Below, one piece after another: positions 14,311 to 36,796 of a DNA stretch of 43,341 bases (positions are counted from its first letter, which is position 1; every line of letters begins with the position of its first letter). The stretch is from Prosthecobacter sp. (GTDB taxonomy: Bacteria > Verrucomicrobiota > Verrucomicrobiia > Verrucomicrobiales > Verrucomicrobiaceae). Below the pieces are notes generated by a model that searched no databases, was not told the origin of the DNA, and worked only from the letters and a program-made list of their open reading frames with translations. The translations under genes were made by a program, and so were the position numbers. The stretch lies in assembly GCF_029946185.1 (NCBI RefSeq), contig NZ_JAQSEA010000133.1:1-43341 (forward strand). Direction: 5' to 3'.

Positions 14311-15218
14311 TTTGCTGCCGCGACATCGCGCGCGATCTGCGCCTTGAGTTCATCCAGCCCGTTGAATTTCATCTCGCTGCGCAGGTGGCGGGTGAAGCGT
14401 ACTTCCAGGTCTTTGCCATAGAGGTCGCCGCTCCAGTCGAGCAGGTGTACTTCGAGGGAGGGATCGGCATCTGCCGCGACGGTGGGCCGGCGGCCGAGAT
14501 TGGCCACGCCGGGGAGCCACTGGGTGTCGATGCGCGCTTGAACCGCATAAACACCGAGCGGCGGGAGCTGTTCGTTTTCGACATCGACATTCGCAGTGGG
14601 GAATCCGAGCTGGCGGCCGAGTTTCTGGCCTTCAACGACGGTGCCAAAGACGGTGTAGTCGCGGCCGAGAAAGGTGGCGGCCTTGACGAAATCACCGTTC
14701 GAGACCGCCTCGCGGATCAGAGTGCTGCTGACGACTTGATGGTCGATTTTTAAGGGCGGAACGCCATACACGGCAAAGTCATGCTCCTGGCCCATATCCA
14801 TGAGCAGGTGGATGTTGCCTTCACGCCGGTGCCCAAAGCTCCAGGTGTAACCCACCGAAATGCAGCCCAGCGGGCGCGAGGCGTGCACAAGCTGCTGGAG
14901 GAAATCGCGGGCGGGCGTTTGGGCGGTCTCTGCGGTGAAGGGGCAGGCCAGCAGGCAGGCAATGCCGGCTTGAGCAAGGATGAGCTGCTGGTGGCGCGGG
15001 CCGCAAAGCAGCTTGGGGGCGGAGCCGGGGCGCAGAACCTGCAGCGGATGAGGGGCAAAGGTCACGACGACTGCCGTGCCGTGGTGCTGCGTGGCGTGCT
15101 CTTGGGCCGCGCGAATGACTTCCTGATGGCCGAGGTGGATTCCATCAAACACACCCACAGCAAGGGCGAGGGGGCCGGGAAGGGTGGAAAGGGCGTCAAT
15201 GGAGCGAAGAACCTGCAT
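14307..15218 (-). CDS. ribF: Bifunctional riboflavin kinase/FMN adenylyltransferase
   Basis: Makes FMN from riboflavin and then FAD. 303 residues from the chosen start MQVLRSIDAL; an in-frame Met ten codons upstream (15248) is possible. The N-terminal FAD synthetase domain shows the nucleotidyltransferase signature VGVFDGIHLGHQEVI. It continues with VVTFAPHPLQVL and the VSSTLIREAVSNGDF turn. The C-terminal riboflavin kinase domain shows GQKLGRQLGFPTANV and a later LEVHLLDWSGDLYGKDLEVRF. Both halves look intact. No FMN riboswitch is visible in the short upstream gap. Confidence 0.96.
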   Translation of the reverse strand: MQVLRSIDALSTLPGPLALAVGVFDGIHLGHQEVIRAAQEHATQHHGTAVVVTFAPHPLQVLRPGSAPKLLCGPRHQQLILAQAGIACLLACPFTAETAQTPARDFLQQLVHASRPLGCISVGYTWSFGHRREGNIHLLMDMGQEHDFAVYGVPPLKIDHQVVSSTLIREAVSNGDFVKAATFLGRDYTVFGTVVEGQKLGRQLGFPTANVDVENEQLPPLGVYAVQARIDTQWLPGVANLGRRPTVAADADPSLEVHLLDWSGDLYGKDLEVRFTRHLRSEMKFNGLDELKAQIARDVAAAK

Positions 15219-15291
15219 GCGTGGGGGTGAGCCATACCAAGCAGCCATGCAGAGCGCAAGGCGAAGGGCGTGGTTAGGAACCCGCCGTTGC

Positions 15292-15477
15292 TTACTTGAG
15301 ATTGCTCAGAGTGCTCCAGAAGCTCTTCAGGACGTTCATCTTGCCGAGGCTGATGCTGCTCTTCAGGTCAGTGTGGGCGGTGCCGATGACCTGGGTCATC
15401 ACTTCACCGTAAGCAGGCATTGCGTTCCAGCCGAGGGTGATCTGTGGGGCGATAGCGGAGGTAGATTTAGTTTTCAT
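15292..15477 (-). CDS. Small hypothetical protein (61 aa)
   Basis: A 61-residue frame starting MKTKSTSAIA, with no signal peptide, membrane helix or recognised domain. It is the only reasonable frame between ribF and the NlpC/P60-like gene. Its start lies in an AT-rich stretch that contrasts with the surrounding coding DNA. It lies 105 bp downstream of the NlpC/P60-like gene on the same strand, so it may be read from that transcript. I do not recognise the family, and conservation elsewhere would decide whether it is real. Confidence 0.45.
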   Translation of the reverse strand: MKTKSTSAIAPQITLGWNAMPAYGEVMTQVIGTAHTDLKSSISLGKMNVLKSFWSTLSNLK

Positions 15478-15582
15478 AGGATTCGTAGTTAAAAGATTTT
15501 TCAGAGGTGATTTACGCTTTGATATTCAGATTTGATTGAAGCTTGGTTTACGAGTGTGATAATAGCGTCGCAAAAATGAGAA

Positions 15583-16281
15583 TTAAAAGCCCGAAGGATG
15601 ACGAGGGGAGAAACCTGCGTAGTTGCGGCCCTTGACGCGCCAGCGGGGGCCTTCGCCCGTGACCTGGCCGGAGGTGTCCATGCGAAGACCACAGATGGTG
15701 ATGAAAACATGCTCCCCAGGCTTCACCCAGATGGTGATGAAGCGGCCGGCACCTGCTTCGCCGTAATTGGCGAACTCCCTGCTGGACAGGCAGCGTTTCA
15801 GCAGCCCAGCCTTCATGAGGACATAGGAAGTGCTGCTGCTGCAGTCATAAGCGCTGTCCTCGATGCTGCGATGGCCGCCACCCAGCACGTAGGGCTTGTT
15901 TTGAAGGGTGTTGGCGGCATAAACAGCGAACTGAAGGGCCTGAGGGGCGGTCTGACCGACGGAGGCAAAGCGACCGTCAAAGCGGATCTGAGAATTGCCA
16001 ACGGCAGGGCGGGCAGCGGCGGTGCGCTGAGCTGCGGCGCGCTGGGCAGCTGCCTGAGCTGCGGCCTGGTCAGCATAGTAGCGAGCCCAGCCGGCTGCAT
16101 TGGCCTGCTGCTGAGCATTGTAGGCGGCCCAAGCCTGCGCGTTGACCTGTTCCTGAGCGTAAGCAGCCTGTGCCTGAGGGGCGGCATAATAACCGGCGGC
16201 AGAGTAACCATTCTGAGCGTTCGCGGCGGCGCCAAAGGCGAGGAGGCTGACGGTGAGTGCGAGGCGGATGAGTGTTTTCAT
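15583..16281 (-). CDS. Secreted NlpC/P60-like peptidoglycan hydrolase with Ala/Gln/Tyr-rich linker
   Basis: A 232-residue protein with a signal peptide (cleavage after about residue 22, ANA-QN). A long low-complexity Ala/Gln/Tyr-rich region follows (about 23-93), then a C-terminal papain-like NlpC/P60-type domain. Catalytic Cys147 sits in the YDCSSSTSYVLMKAGLL motif and His191 in PGEHVFITI. The RHPSGF ending is typical of this subgroup. It presumably cleaves peptide bonds in peptidoglycan in the periplasm or outside. The low-complexity linker is unusual for so small an enzyme. A sigma-70-like promoter lies just upstream (16314-16341). Confidence 0.82.
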   Translation of the reverse strand: MKTLIRLALTVSLLAFGAAANAQNGYSAAGYYAAPQAQAAYAQEQVNAQAWAAYNAQQQANAAGWARYYADQAAAQAAAQRAAAQRTAAARPAVGNSQIRFDGRFASVGQTAPQALQFAVYAANTLQNKPYVLGGGHRSIEDSAYDCSSSTSYVLMKAGLLKRCLSSREFANYGEAGAGRFITIWVKPGEHVFITICGLRMDTSGQVTGEGPRWRVKGRNYAGFSPRHPSGF

Positions 16282-16341: not shown

Positions 16342-16607
16342 CAATCATATCAGAATTAACTCACGATTTTGTAAATTTGATAATTTTTAGATGTGTTAAA
16401 TCGCGTAACCCATTCTAAATAAACAAACTATATGAATGCCCAGATGGCGGCAGAAACGAGAAATTTAGATCTCAGCCTTTATAAAACTACAATAATTGAT
16501 AAATATGCGTTTATATTCCATTAAATAACCGTTAATTACGATCATTATAGAGAAGGGTTAAAAATCTCTTTTCCCTATTTCTTGCGTTCAAACCGACACC
16601 TCTGAAA
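16342..16607. other. AT-rich divergent intergenic region
   Basis: About 265 bp, markedly richer in A/T than the rest of the window, between the divergent NlpC/P60-like gene and the two-repeat secreted protein. No gene is supported. It must hold the promoter for the plus-strand gene, but no clear -35/-10 pair with correct spacing stands out. The base composition could mark a regulatory region or foreign DNA. Confidence 0.4.
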
Positions 16608-17183
16608 ATGGCGACCATGAACTCACGGCTGCAGTCATTCCTAATTCCGGTGGTGGCCCTCTTCTTGTTTGCGACGTGCGTGTGGGGTGCTGAGCCGCCG
16701 AAGCTGACTTATTTTTATGACGAGGAGGGCATGCGCTATCTGACCCTGCGCCAGACTTCCGCCACAGGAGTGGAAGTGATCACGCGCTGGGCCTCGGAAC
16801 CGGGATCGACTGGCGTGTGGACAGGGCAGGGGATTCGCAAAGACAATGCGGTCAGCTTTGCTGCCGTGGTGGATGAGGGGCAGGACCGTGGCTCGTATTT
16901 CATCGCCAGAGGCGGGGAGTCGAAAATGGAGATCCTGTTCAAGCCGGGGCAGAAGATGCCGCAGGACCCGGGCATCCTCGGCATCTACCGCCGTGTGAGT
17001 GATGAGAAGCGCTTGCAACTGGCCCGCAAAGAGTACCAAGCGGCGGACGAGCGGCTGACCATGGCTTTGAAGGAGGCTGCACACGCTTGGACAGGGGCGG
17101 ATAAGACCGTGCCTGCCGATTGGAAGGCACGCTGGCCGGCGCTGCTGGGCCGCTGGATGAAAATCGCCTATCAGCCGCCGTAG
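16608..17183 (+). CDS. Secreted two-repeat protein, N-terminal part (ends at in-frame TAG)
   Basis: A 191-residue frame with a signal peptide (best start MNSRLQSF at codon 4; cleavage near VWG-AE). It has a beta-rich domain ending PGILGIYRR, then a helical stretch around EYQAADERLTMALKEA that resembles an LprI/DUF1311-like segment. It stops at a TAG (17181-17183). Translation in the same frame continues without another stop to 17681 and supplies the rest of the helical segment. It then supplies a second copy of the beta-rich domain, ending DGIYRW. The gene therefore looks like one 357-codon frame broken by a single stop: pseudogene, sequencing error or readthrough. Confidence 0.65.
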   Translation: MATMNSRLQSFLIPVVALFLFATCVWGAEPPKLTYFYDEEGMRYLTLRQTSATGVEVITRWASEPGSTGVWTGQGIRKDNAVSFAAVVDEGQDRGSYFIARGGESKMEILFKPGQKMPQDPGILGIYRRVSDEKRLQLARKEYQAADERLTMALKEAAHAWTGADKTVPADWKARWPALLGRWMKIAYQPP

Positions 17184-17192
17184 CCTACGAAG

Positions 17193-17681
17193 GTGGTGAA
17201 GCCTGCTCTCCCGTTCCCCGCAGGCAAAGACGCCTTCTCACCGGAGAAGGATGTCCAGTACTGGCTCAAGTTCGCGCAAGTCACTGCGGCTGCTTACGGC
17301 TTCATTCAGCAGCCGGCTGTGATGAAGCGCTCCGCCTGGGATGGCGAGTATGACGATGGATTAGGCGGCCACGTGAGCATCCGCCGTGCGAAGGACGGCA
17401 AGCTACGCGTGAATCTGAACTGCACACGCGTGAATGAAAATCAGGGCTCCGACCTCGCGGGGCAGATTCCCGCCGAGGCGGTGAAATCGCAGAATGACGA
17501 GGACACAGCGGCCGCCGTCTTCATTGAGGCAGACGTTCCGGAAAATGCCAAGGAGGTCAGCATCACGCTGAAGCGCAAAGGCAGCTTCCTCTGGCTGGAA
17601 ACCAAACGCAAAGCATCACCGCCCGGCAGCCTGTCCTGGTTCGACGGCATCTACCGCTGGTCGCCGGTGCCGGTGGAGTGA
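17193..17681 (+). CDS. Secreted two-repeat protein, C-terminal part (downstream of in-frame TAG)
   Basis: A 162-residue continuation in the same frame as the preceding 16608-17183 segment. The first possible start is a GTG 9 bp after the TAG. It has no signal peptide of its own, although its partner domain is exported, which argues against an independent gene. The DVQYWLKFAQVTAAAYGFI helix looks like the end of an LprI-like region begun upstream. The following WDGEYDDGLGGHVSIRR through LSWFDGIYRW parallels the upstream domain. It is best read as the distal half of one interrupted gene. Confidence 0.6.
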   Translation: MVKPALPFPAGKDAFSPEKDVQYWLKFAQVTAAAYGFIQQPAVMKRSAWDGEYDDGLGGHVSIRRAKDGKLRVNLNCTRVNENQGSDLAGQIPAEAVKSQNDEDTAAAVFIEADVPENAKEVSITLKRKGSFLWLETKRKASPPGSLSWFDGIYRWSPVPVE

Positions 17682-18030: not shown

Positions 18031-18564
18031 TTATGCCTTCTTGGTTGGCGTCGGCGTTTCAAAGAACGACGCGAGCGCCAGCAGGATCGCTGCGCAGACG
18101 ACGCAGGAATCCGCCACATTGAAGGAAGGCCACGGATGAAACGGCCAGAAGCCGAAGTCGAAGCGCAGGAAGTCCACGACGTAGCCGTCGAAGAAGGTGC
18201 CGTCCAAAAGCTTGCCGCCGTCGTGATTGCGGAAGAGGCGGTCGGTGAGATTGCCAAAGATGCCGGAGACCAGCAGCGCGACGGCAAGGCGGCTGAGCTT
18301 GCCGGGAAACAGGCCCTTGCCGTGCATCACATAAATGAAGACGAGCGCAGCCACGGAGATGGCGGCGAAGGCGTAATTCGCATACTGCGTGCCATTGAAC
18401 ATGCCAAAGGCCACTCCGGTGTTCGACGCGTGGTGCAGCCAGAAGATGCCGGGGATGACTTCCTGCTCGTTGTCGTAGAGCCTGAAATGCTGCACGATCC
18501 AGCTCTTGGTGAGCTGGTCGAGAATGTACAGTGGGAGCGAGAGGAGCAGGAAAAGGCGAATCAT
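18031..18564 (-). CDS. lspA: Lipoprotein signal peptidase (signal peptidase II)
   Basis: Membrane aspartyl protease that removes signal peptides from prolipoproteins such as the lipobox proteins encoded at 9402 and 34224. 177 residues with four predicted membrane helices. Conserved boxes are present: LDQLTKSW near the N-terminus, NTGVAFGMF, GNLTDRLF with the first catalytic Asp, VVDFLRFDF, and SFNVADS with the second catalytic Asp. There is an insertion-like stretch between GNLTDRLF and VVDF (NHDGGKLLDGTFFDG). It is the last gene of the minus-strand run release-factor-like/dehydrogenase/lspA, 8 bp after the dehydrogenase stop. Confidence 0.96.
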   Translation of the reverse strand: MIRLFLLLSLPLYILDQLTKSWIVQHFRLYDNEQEVIPGIFWLHHASNTGVAFGMFNGTQYANYAFAAISVAALVFIYVMHGKGLFPGKLSRLAVALLVSGIFGNLTDRLFRNHDGGKLLDGTFFDGYVVDFLRFDFGFWPFHPWPSFNVADSCVVCAAILLALASFFETPTPTKKA

Positions 18565-25735: not shown

Positions 25736-27307
25736 TCACTTCTCTTCCGCGATTTCCAGCCTCGGAAACAGCGGTACGGGTGTGCCAAGCTGGTGGCCGC
25801 TGGGCAGCAGGCCCCATTGAAGATCGCTGATTTTAAAGCCGTCGGGCAGGACCCAGCCGAGCTGGGCCCTGGCGATGCCCATGGCGGTGGGCATGATGGG
25901 ATTGAGCAGAACGGTGACGTGCGTGAATGCCTCCGCCAGATGGTAGAGCACGCTGTCCAGGCGGGCGGCCTGCGCGGGGTCTTTGGCGAGGGAGAATGGC
26001 TTGGTGCTGTCCACGTATGCATTGGCATGCGAGACGATCTTCCACGCGGCGGCGATGCCTTCGTGGATGTCCCAGCCGTTCATCTTTTCAAGGTAGAGCG
26101 GGGTGGCCTCCGCGACGGTCTGGCGCAGGGCTTGATTGATCTCGTCATCGTAGTCACCGGGGGTGAGCAGGCCTTCGCGGTACTTCTGCGCCATGTTGAT
26201 GGAGCGGTTGAGCAGATTGCCCAGTCCACCTGCCAGCTCCTTGTTGTAGGACATGATGATGCGCTCGTCGCTGAAGTCGGCGTCATAGCCGGTGGCGATG
26301 TCGCGCATGAGGTAGTAGCGCAGGCCGTCTGGCGTGAAGGTGTCGGAGAGCACGTTCGGATCAATCACGTTGCCGAGGCTCTTGCTGATCTTCGCGCCCT
26401 TCATGTTCCACCAGCCATGCACGATGAGCTTGGGGATCTCCGCGTCGGGGAAGCCGAGCGCATGCAGCATGATGGGCCAATAGACCGCATGCGCGGGCAC
26501 CAGGATGTCTTTGCCGATGATCTCGGCATCCGCAGGCCAGAGCTTCTTGAAATCGGGCATGCCTTCGTTGCCGACTTCATCGGCCATGTAACCGGCAAAG
26601 CTGATGTAGTTCGTCAGCGCGTCGAACCACACGTAGTTGACGAATTTTTCGTCAAAGGGCAGGGGAATGCCCCAGTTCAGGCGCTCCAGCGGGCGCGAGA
26701 TGCAGAGGTCCTGCGCGTTGCCTTCGAGCGAGTTGAGCACGTCGTTGGCACGGTGCGGCGGGTAGATGAAATCGGGATTGCCACGGATGTAGTTTTTCAG
26801 CCACTCCACATGGTCGCTGAGGCGGAAGTACCAGTTCTCCTCCTGCAACTCCACGACCTCGCCCCACTCCGCGCCGAAGTTGCCATCAGGGCCGCGTTCT
26901 TTGTCGGTGAGGAACTGCTCCTGACGCACGGAGTAGAAGCCGGCGTAGGCCTTCTTGTAAAGCTGGCCGCAGTCGTGCAGCTTTTGCAGCATGGCCTGCA
27001 CCACGCGCTTGTGTTTGATGTCGGTGGTGGCGGCCCAGCCGTCGAAGCGCACGTTCAACTTGTCCCACAGCGCGGTGAAATGCTGCGTGATGCCATCGAC
27101 GAATTCCTGTGGCGACTGTCCGACTTTGTCGGCGCTCTTTTGCACCTTCTGGCCGTGCTGATCGACGCCGGTGAGGAAGTACACCTCGCGCCCGTTGAGC
27201 CGCTGAAACCGCGCCATGACGTCCGCCAGCACCTTCTCATAAGCGTGGCCGATGTGCGGCGGCGCATTGGTGTAGTCGATGGCGGTGGTGATGTAGTAGG
27301 GCTTCAT
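25736..27307 (-). CDS. metG: Methionyl-tRNA synthetase
   Basis: Charges tRNA-Met. 523 residues, the short form without the C-terminal tRNA-binding (EMAP-like) dimerisation domain. The HIGH motif is PPHIGHAYEKV (residues 16-26) and the KMSKS-type motif is GAKISKSLGN (about 303-312). The connective-peptide zinc knuckle is replaced by a Cys-free loop (YSVRQEQFLTDKERGPDG), so this is the zinc-free class. The C-terminal anticodon-binding domain is helical, with ADFSDERIIMSYNKELAGGLGNL. The start has no Shine-Dalgarno sequence. The hairpin at 25701-25729 follows its stop. Confidence 0.97.
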   Translation of the reverse strand: MKPYYITTAIDYTNAPPHIGHAYEKVLADVMARFQRLNGREVYFLTGVDQHGQKVQKSADKVGQSPQEFVDGITQHFTALWDKLNVRFDGWAATTDIKHKRVVQAMLQKLHDCGQLYKKAYAGFYSVRQEQFLTDKERGPDGNFGAEWGEVVELQEENWYFRLSDHVEWLKNYIRGNPDFIYPPHRANDVLNSLEGNAQDLCISRPLERLNWGIPLPFDEKFVNYVWFDALTNYISFAGYMADEVGNEGMPDFKKLWPADAEIIGKDILVPAHAVYWPIMLHALGFPDAEIPKLIVHGWWNMKGAKISKSLGNVIDPNVLSDTFTPDGLRYYLMRDIATGYDADFSDERIIMSYNKELAGGLGNLLNRSINMAQKYREGLLTPGDYDDEINQALRQTVAEATPLYLEKMNGWDIHEGIAAAWKIVSHANAYVDSTKPFSLAKDPAQAARLDSVLYHLAEAFTHVTVLLNPIMPTAMGIARAQLGWVLPDGFKISDLQWGLLPSGHQLGTPVPLFPRLEIAEEK

Positions 27308-27387
27308 GGTTGGGGCGCGGCTTTCCCATGCCGCCCTTCGCCCTGCAATTCAAGTGTTCCTGCGCTGGAAAGCACCGCAGCCGGGGT

Positions 27388-34984: not shown

Positions 34985-35238
34985 TCGAATACCGACTGCT
35001 GCTGGCGCATGAGGTCATCGTGTTTCTTGACTCCATCAAGGCGGCGGATCGGAAACGATTGATCAAGCGTTTTCTGGAGATCACCAGCTATCCAGCGCGA
35101 TATGCTGACTACGAAGAGCGTGACGCGGTGGGGCGCAGACTCGATGTGCATGTCCATGCCGGCTACGCGATTGTCTATTGGGAGGACTTTGCCGACCGGC
35201 ATTTGAAGGTGCTCGATGTCAGGCCAGCCGATCATTGA
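34981..35238 (+). CDS. ParE/RelE-family toxin-like protein
   Basis: An 85-residue protein of the RelE/ParE type: EYRLLLAHEVIVFLDSIKAADRKRLIKRF, then the central beta hairpin DVHVHAGYAIVYWEDFADRHLKVLDVR. The pattern with a terminal LKVLDV segment is typical of the ParE family, whose members poison gyrase, while RelE members cleave mRNA. The class cannot be fixed by eye. It is translationally coupled to the antitoxin. The next gene, proS, starts 43 bp after its stop. Confidence 0.78.
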   Translation: MIEYRLLLAHEVIVFLDSIKAADRKRLIKRFLEITSYPARYADYEERDAVGRRLDVHVHAGYAIVYWEDFADRHLKVLDVRPADH

Positions 35239-35281
35239 CCGCCTGCCGAATGCTTCTATCCTACGCGTTCCCAATCCTCCC

Positions 35282-36796
35282 ATGAGCAACGCCACCGCCA
35301 TCACTCCCACACGCGCCCAAGATTTCCCCGAATGGTACCAGCAGGTCGTTCGTGCCGCCGACATGGCGGAGAACTCCGAGGTGCGCGGCTGCATGGTCAT
35401 CAAGCCCTGGGGCTACGGCCTGTGGGAAAACATCCAGCGCCAGCTCGATGTGAAGTTCAAGGAAACCGGCCACGTGAACGCCTATTTTCCATTGCTGATC
35501 CCCCTGAGCTATCTCGAAAAGGAAGCGCAGCATGCAGAGGGCTTTGCCACTGAGTGCGCAGTGGTCACGCATCATCGCCTGGAGGCGCAGAAGCAGCCCG
35601 ATGGCACAGTCAAGATGATCCCTACCGGCGAACTGGCCGAGCCGTTTGTCATTCGCCCGACTTCGGAGACGATCATCGGCGCCGCTTTCGCCCGCTGGGT
35701 GGAAAGCTACCGCGACCTGCCGCTGCTCATCAATCAGTGGTGCAACGTCATGCGCTGGGAGATGCGCCCGCGTCTCTTCCTGCGCACCGCCGAGTTCCTC
35801 TGGCAGGAAGGCCACACCGCACATGAAACCGCCGAGGAGGCCATCGCGGAAACCCGCACCATGCACAAAGTGTATGAAGACTTCATGCGCGATCACCTCG
35901 CCATTCCGGTGATCCCTGGCGAGAAAACGGAGCGCGAACGCTTCCCTGGTGCTGTGCAGACCTTCACTGTCGAAGCGATGGTGCAGGACAAGAAGGCCAT
36001 CCAGGCCGGTACGTCGCACTATCTCGGCCAAAACTTCGCCAAGGCTGCGAACATTCAATTCCTCGGCCGCGACAACACACGCCAGCTTGCCCACACCACA
36101 AGCTGGGGCGTCAGCACGCGCATGATCGGCACAGTCATCATGGCCCATGGCGATGACGACGGCGTCATCATCCCACCACGCGTGGCCCCGAATCAGATCG
36201 TCATCCTCCCCGTCACGCCCAAAGCGGACACTCGGGATGAAGTCATCGCCGCCTGCGAGGCGCTGGCCCAGACGCTGCGTTTGCAGACGTTCGCCGGCGA
36301 GCCGTTGCGCGTGCACGTTGACAAGCGCGACCTTCAGGGCGGCGCGAAGAACTGGGAATGGATCAAGAAAGGCGTGCCGATGCGTCTTGAAATGGGCCCC
36401 CGCGACATCGCCAACCGCAGCGTCGCGGTCTGCCGTCGCGATCAAGGGCCAAAAGCCAAGGAGTTCGTGCCCAAGGAGGACTTCCTCCAGAACGTGACCG
36501 AGCGGCTGCAGGAGATTCAGGATGCGCTGCTCGCACGTGCCACCGCCCTGCGGGATGCGAACATGAAGAAGATCGAAACGCTGGAAGAATTCAAAGCCTT
36601 CTTTGCCGAAGACTCCGAAGGCGGCTTTGCCCTGATGCATTGGGCCGGCAGCAGCGACGATGAGGACACCCTCAGCAAGGACCTCAAGGTCACCATCCGC
36701 TGCATCCCCCACGGCGATCAGTTTGCCGAGGAAGGGAAATGCTTCCTCACCGGCAAGCCAAGCTCACACCGCGTGGTGTTTGCGCGGAGTTACTGA
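35282..36796 (+). CDS. proS: Prolyl-tRNA synthetase, archaeal/eukaryotic type
   Basis: Charges tRNA-Pro. 504 residues from MSNATAITPT; 22 upstream in-frame codons overlapping the toxin gene were rejected. Class II motifs are visible: TSETIIGAAF (motif-2 region), RWEMRPRLFLRTAEFLWQEGHTAH, and the HTTSWGVSTRMIGT block with motif 3. The INS editing domain of the bacterial type is absent. There is a C-terminal domain with IRCIPHGDQFAEEGKC and a final aromatic-rich end (FARSY), as in archaeal-type ProRS. No Shine-Dalgarno sequence is seen. It ends in the GGTCAAG hairpin region. Confidence 0.96.
   Translation: MSNATAITPTRAQDFPEWYQQVVRAADMAENSEVRGCMVIKPWGYGLWENIQRQLDVKFKETGHVNAYFPLLIPLSYLEKEAQHAEGFATECAVVTHHRLEAQKQPDGTVKMIPTGELAEPFVIRPTSETIIGAAFARWVESYRDLPLLINQWCNVMRWEMRPRLFLRTAEFLWQEGHTAHETAEEAIAETRTMHKVYEDFMRDHLAIPVIPGEKTERERFPGAVQTFTVEAMVQDKKAIQAGTSHYLGQNFAKAANIQFLGRDNTRQLAHTTSWGVSTRMIGTVIMAHGDDDGVIIPPRVAPNQIVILPVTPKADTRDEVIAACEALAQTLRLQTFAGEPLRVHVDKRDLQGGAKNWEWIKKGVPMRLEMGPRDIANRSVAVCRRDQGPKAKEFVPKEDFLQNVTERLQEIQDALLARATALRDANMKKIETLEEFKAFFAEDSEGGFALMHWAGSSDDEDTLSKDLKVTIRCIPHGDQFAEEGKCFLTGKPSSHRVVFARSY

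Follow-up and report, generated by a model that had tools for sequence, protein, structure and literature searches.

According to the survey by Belinky et al. (2021, PMC7918605), in-frame stop codons are common and widespread in bacterial genes, the genes concerned show dN/dS values below 1, and most of the stops are short-lived and on the scale of polymorphism. The same survey expects a substantial fraction of the raw cases to be artefacts. A literature search on pseudogenes in Prosthecobacter found nothing relevant. The locus described here lies in the window, i.e., the whole stretch of DNA that was analysed, which is a complete contig of 43,341 bases (C133) from the draft genome, 6.19 Mb in 317 contigs, of an aquatic Prosthecobacter-like bacterium. 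Among named records, those nearest to it that also carry this gene are metagenome assemblies of Prosthecobacter and Verrucomicrobiaceae.

Layout of the Interrupted Frame

In the window sequence, a single TAG (17181–17183) cuts one frame that extends from 16617 to 17678. A further in-frame ATG lies at 16608. The frame continues in the same phase past the stop and is closed by a TGA (17679–17681), with a GTG three codons past the TAG, at 17193 (Table 1). The interrupted gene is alone on the + strand and is flanked by two conserved genes on the opposite strand (15583–16281 and 18031–18564). The frame, the stop and the single-frame homologues agree with the earlier note, in which the locus was read as one secreted gene split by a single in-frame TAG, and the second part was confirmed to be devoid of a signal peptide of its own. 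Elsewhere in the window, at 35207–36793, the corresponding ORF of the closest relative is 753 codons long, of which about 250 at the N-terminal end are extra and unmatched in the window; in two other relatives it has about 550.

Table 1. Features of the interrupted gene and its 5' region, in window coordinates.
Feature	Position	Strand	Basis or remark
Gene-proximal 5' region with blocks conserved in relatives	16535–16616	+	Changes unique to the window at 16574, 16578 and 16606
In-frame ATG and two codons, probably 5' untranslated	16608–16616	+	Upstream stretches of relatives and alignment
First part: signal peptide, beta-barrel-like domain 1, two helices	16617–17183	+	Start from relatives; layout from model of closest relative
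Predicted beta-barrel-like domain 1, residues 30–126	16704–16994	+	L059 model; numbering transfers without gaps
In-frame TAG in variable linker	17181–17183	+	Sense codon in 17/27 aligned homologues, gap in 10/27
Second part, in phase with the first: linker, third helix, beta-barrel-like domain 2 and closing TGA; lacks a signal peptide	17184–17681	+	
Two GTG codons, sole near candidates for re-initiation after the TAG	17193–17198	+	Not preceded by an AGGAGG-like sequence; starts not conserved in relatives
Predicted beta-barrel-like domain 2, residues 243–349	17343–17663	+	Model of closest relative (L059) and separate domain model

Homologues in Related Genomes

The genus was searched with a profile built from 15 named relatives, and a homologue was detected in 38 of 48 genomes, 35 of the 38 carrying it as one stop-free match over at least profile positions 20–352. 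The three exceptions were the window itself, a fragment with an in-frame TGA in genome G034 (a 162-codon piece at the very start of its contig) and genome G340, where the match is divided between two contigs, the first piece beginning at base 11. The gene was undetected in the other 10 of the 48 genomes, some of which are incomplete. The same type of search gave matches in 41 of 68 genomes of the family, 38 of them stop-free, and in 4 of 286 genomes drawn from the class, all four in the same genus. A protein search over 56 genomes, the source genome included, gave 28 matches, of which 26 were stop-free and the remaining two were the window and the G034 fragment. A second copy of the gene was not found in its own genome by either the protein or the profile search.

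The earlier note had drawn attention to homologues of one half only, as the observation that would speak against a single gene, and to the codon found at the stop in close relatives. Genuine half-only homologues were not found in any of the three genome sets (48 for the genus, 68 for the family and 286 for the class), where the only partial matches were fragments at contig ends or on split contigs, and the TAG was absent from all 35 stop-free homologues of the genus. At the stop column of the 27 aligned homologues, the sense codons encode four different residues. The single-frame homologues L059–L073, from Prosthecobacter and Verrucomicrobiaceae drafts, show identities of 46–86% and the same architecture as the window gene, the close ones sharing its 5' blocks as well, and differ from it in the lack of an internal stop. 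Judged by these sequence comparisons, the two ORFs of the window are one gene, and the annotation should record them as one interrupted gene, which matters little beyond this.

The in-frame TGA of G034 (L028:145-147, in G034:C337) falls at an invariant tryptophan column of a contig-start fragment in a draft of 1230 contigs. Since RF2 scored above the cut-off in that genome, a local mutation or error is likelier there than UGA recoding. In a few relatives (L017 and L073; e.g., 788 codons in G014), an open frame runs far upstream of the gene; this is probably a chance frame antisense to a neighbouring gene.

Start Codon and 5' Region

An ATG aligned with window position 16617 was present in 12 of the 15 named relatives (L059–L070). 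In 11 of these 12 close relatives no in-frame ATG, GTG or TTG occurs between the aligned ATG and the upstream stop, the twelfth, L070, having a GTG 6 nt upstream. Because the relatives start at this codon, mostly without an earlier start, the real start is probably ATG 16617, and ATG 16608, which lies 9 nt too far upstream and which the earlier note had taken as the start, is probably untranslated.

The 5' comparison involved the window and 12 relatives, was made after the alignment had been seen and rests on small numbers. The window alone was changed at 3 of 34 otherwise invariant 5' positions, compared with 0–2 in each of the 12 relatives. On the promoter side of the divergently oriented neighbour, 1 of 83 positions was changed in the window and 0–4 in the others. 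The 5' changes would fit a decay of expression alongside the decay of the frame. The block itself (window 16535–16616; upstream of L059–L071) has a core that is invariant in the 12 close relatives, kept in L071 and altered in the window. When its exact pattern was searched for in five genomes, one match was found in each of three, just upstream of this gene, and none in the source genome or the closest relative; no regulon was found. The block looks gene-specific rather than a regulon signal, since each of the three genomes has one match, upstream of this gene. Promoter-like matches were few and weak, with one of three inside the gene, at 16818–16847, and they made no case for the second part having a promoter of its own.

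Predicted Protein Architecture

The closest relative, L059 (86% identical and gapless against the window), was modelled from 15 sequences with a mean pLDDT of 78.5 and a pTM of 0.74. The model displays a hydrophobic N-terminal helix, strands over residues 30–126, three helices (129–157, 160–184 and 213–231) and strands over residues 243–349, with a linker at 192–205 that falls below pLDDT 50. The stop aligns with residue 189, between the second and third helices and just before the low-pLDDT stretch; the helical stretch that the earlier note had placed across the stop is thus present in the predicted model, with helices on either side. The second barrel, when modelled alone, reached a mean pLDDT of 87.8. 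The protein is predicted to be exported and to consist of a signal peptide, barrel 1, a three-helix stretch and barrel 2.

Each of the two barrel models is made up of eight or nine strands, arranged as a meander. In VIA-align searches with the two barrels, the top two chains were identical and the remaining rows were mostly avidin or streptavidin; the best values were Z 8.6 (rmsd 3.5, 97 aligned) and Z 9.2 (rmsd 3.1, 95 aligned), with many tied rows and near the range that the tool calls common. The whole model gave no Foldseek match at E ≤ 0.001. The two barrels were not found to be similar in sequence (hhalign probability 0.4), so that the parallel beta domains proposed in the earlier note are supported at the level of the predicted fold, both being meander barrels, but not by a sequence signal. 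Both predicted domains may resemble avidin/streptavidin-like small meander barrels (VIA-align Z 7–9, in the tool's common range) in strand order and size, but no sequence similarity to these was found for either domain, and no ligand is proposed from the likeness.

The LprI/DUF1311-like label that had been attached to the helices was not upheld, as Pfam PF07007 matched one of 15 members with 13.2 bits, below its cut-off of 22 bits, and gave no hits for the two window parts. No NCBIfam model matched. The best Pfam alternatives, Sugarporin_N in five of 15 members (best E 0.036) and VanA_C in one of 15, were weak. When the family profile was run against PDB sequences, only weak, partial matches to Disks-large/SAP97 chains were obtained (E 0.083–0.27), and these were taken as chance. 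A search of a plasmid collection with the region found nothing. By its sequences the family appears largely restricted to the genus, and a by-product of this work is a sequence-defined family of predicted exported two-barrel proteins, mainly of one genus, that is covered by no Pfam or NCBIfam model.

Constraint around the Stop

Parsimony counts on the window branch were too few to use, and a codon likelihood model was fitted instead to seven sequences on a tree with weak internal support (46–92). Over the 164 codons after the stop, omega was 0.103 on the window branch and 0.139 elsewhere (likelihood-ratio 0.38), so that relaxed constraint after the stop was not found by this model. Setting the window-branch omega of this part to 0.25, 0.30 or 1.0 costs 3.57, 5.12 and 17.9, respectively, and omega = 1 is rejected. 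For the part before the stop, the corresponding values were 0.223 and 0.147, a difference that is not significant (likelihood-ratio 0.78). Pairwise NG86 omega values for the second part were similarly low, with 0.149 and 0.134 between the window and its two closest genomes and 0.121–0.191 among five intact genomes. From our own arithmetic on the likelihood profile, if the stop released the region from selection, it did so for at most about 14%, or roughly the last seventh, of the window branch. As constraint persists after the stop, the stop is young, an error, or bypassed.

Origin of the Stop

The most likely explanation is a recent nonsense mutation or polymorphism, followed by a consensus error. 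A genuine stop of recent origin, be it a nonsense mutation or a polymorphism among strains, in a gene whose exported product is dispensable, is considered probable. The gene is 86% identical to its counterpart in the closest genome, compared with about 91–99% for the conserved neighbours, and this lower conservation, together with its absence from the matches in 10 of 48 genus genomes, suggests that the gene may be dispensable; such a gene can carry a nonsense change for some time. Several observations weigh against this reading or leave it no better off than its rivals: a consensus error would give the same sequence, unchanged constraint is equally expected of a bypassed stop, constraint on the first part is likewise not significantly relaxed, and the 5' changes, which were sought after the fact, are small in number (3 of 34, compared with 0–2 in the 12 others). 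An error in the consensus or the assembly, or a minority allele that entered the consensus of the 317-contig draft, would mean that living cells mostly carry an unbroken gene. This is unlikely by comparison, but has a substantial share of the probability: the genome is a draft whose named genus neighbours are metagenome assemblies, the frame shows no other damage and is under normal constraint before and after the stop, and no relative has the stop. Against an error stands the condition of the remaining contig. Compared with the closest genome, two of the 33 best matches to relative ORFs carry an in-frame stop, namely this gene and an ORF at 15139–15504 (126 codons, 63% identical) that partly overlaps a conserved gene in antisense, and over the contigs of six relatives this is the only conserved full-length window gene with an in-frame stop against all six. 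The other stops concerned low-identity or overlapping mechanical ORFs, or a 601-codon ORF of G021 aligned to window 25739–27370, where the other relatives show no stop. The contig is not visibly error-rich, though a single wrong base may still be present. The chance presence of two separate genes in the same frame is scarcely credible, as nothing beyond the two mechanical ORFs speaks for it, while in 35 of the 38 genus homologues one frame runs uninterrupted through this site and the sole separate-half matches are a contig-start fragment and a gene on two contigs.

A functional bypass, by UAG readthrough or by re-initiation at GTG 17193 or 17196, would yield the full-length protein or a separate second domain. 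It stays in consideration because persistent constraint is what a bypass predicts, the constraint after the stop being as strong as in intact relatives; the stop also falls in a linker predicted to be disordered, which would tolerate a break or an exchanged residue, and a GTG lies 9 nt past the TAG. Positive support for a bypass is lacking and it is rated improbable. The stop occurs in none of the 35 stop-free genus homologues, so that the conservation expected of a programmed UAG readthrough was not found. RF1 (prfA) is present with 457.6 bits against a cut-off of 423.25, TAG serves as an ordinary terminator (54 of 291 long frames in 834 kb of the source genome, with 72 TAA and 165 TGA), and a CUA anticodon was found in none of 46 tRNA matches (44 read by ARAGORN and two by eye) in a genome listed as 95.86% complete; these three results rule against a UAG-recoded genome, including one with pyrrolysine. 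With regard to re-initiation, no ribosome-binding-like sequence precedes the GTGs, which are not conserved as starts; GTG 17193 is also GTG in some relatives, where it is an ordinary valine codon inside the single frame, and a re-initiated second part would be without a signal peptide. A codon-usage scan for TAG-interrupted genes over 834,263 bases (50 stretches, the window included, about 13% of the genome) was non-discriminating, as it placed this stop 86th of 1686, and was used for the terminator counts only; its highest-ranked rows appear to be mainly adjacent genes that share a frame. A compact array of eight tRNA matches, several of them low-scoring and for amino acids that mostly have a tRNA elsewhere in this genome, was observed at G000:C199:7367-8700 (L077) and is possibly a mobile-element tRNA array. 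Even more improbable than a bypass in general is a tolerated or useful cut of the linker, in which barrel 1 alone would be the main export and a little full-length protein would arise by UAG readthrough; if true, one mutation would have converted the two-barrel protein into two forms with tuned dosage.

Probable Outcome and Comparison with Known Interrupted Genes

In the favoured reading, that of a recent nonsense mutation, a single change would have struck the linker of an intact gene for an exported two-barrel protein. The likely outcome would be a truncated exported product of barrel 1 and two helices, whereas the second barrel would not be made, or would arise only in cytoplasmic traces via re-initiation. 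The mutation would be young, and would probably represent either a polymorphism between strains or an early stage in the making of a pseudogene. The comparisons show that relatives have a single gene, that the stop is confined to this genome, that constraint persists behind it and that the genetic code is standard. We infer a genuine base at the stop, as opposed to an error in the consensus, as well as the lack of a second-part product and the dispensability of the gene. Out of the three options proposed in the earlier note, a recent pseudogene or polymorphism and a sequencing error are thus the ones favoured, while readthrough found no positive support.

The set of Belinky et al. (2021, PMC7918605) was composed of stops shared by at least two species, which limits artefacts, whereas the present stop is known from one genome only. 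The cases described there and the gene reported here have in common a single in-frame stop in an otherwise constrained frame with low dN/dS around it, and to that extent the present case fits the picture drawn in that survey.
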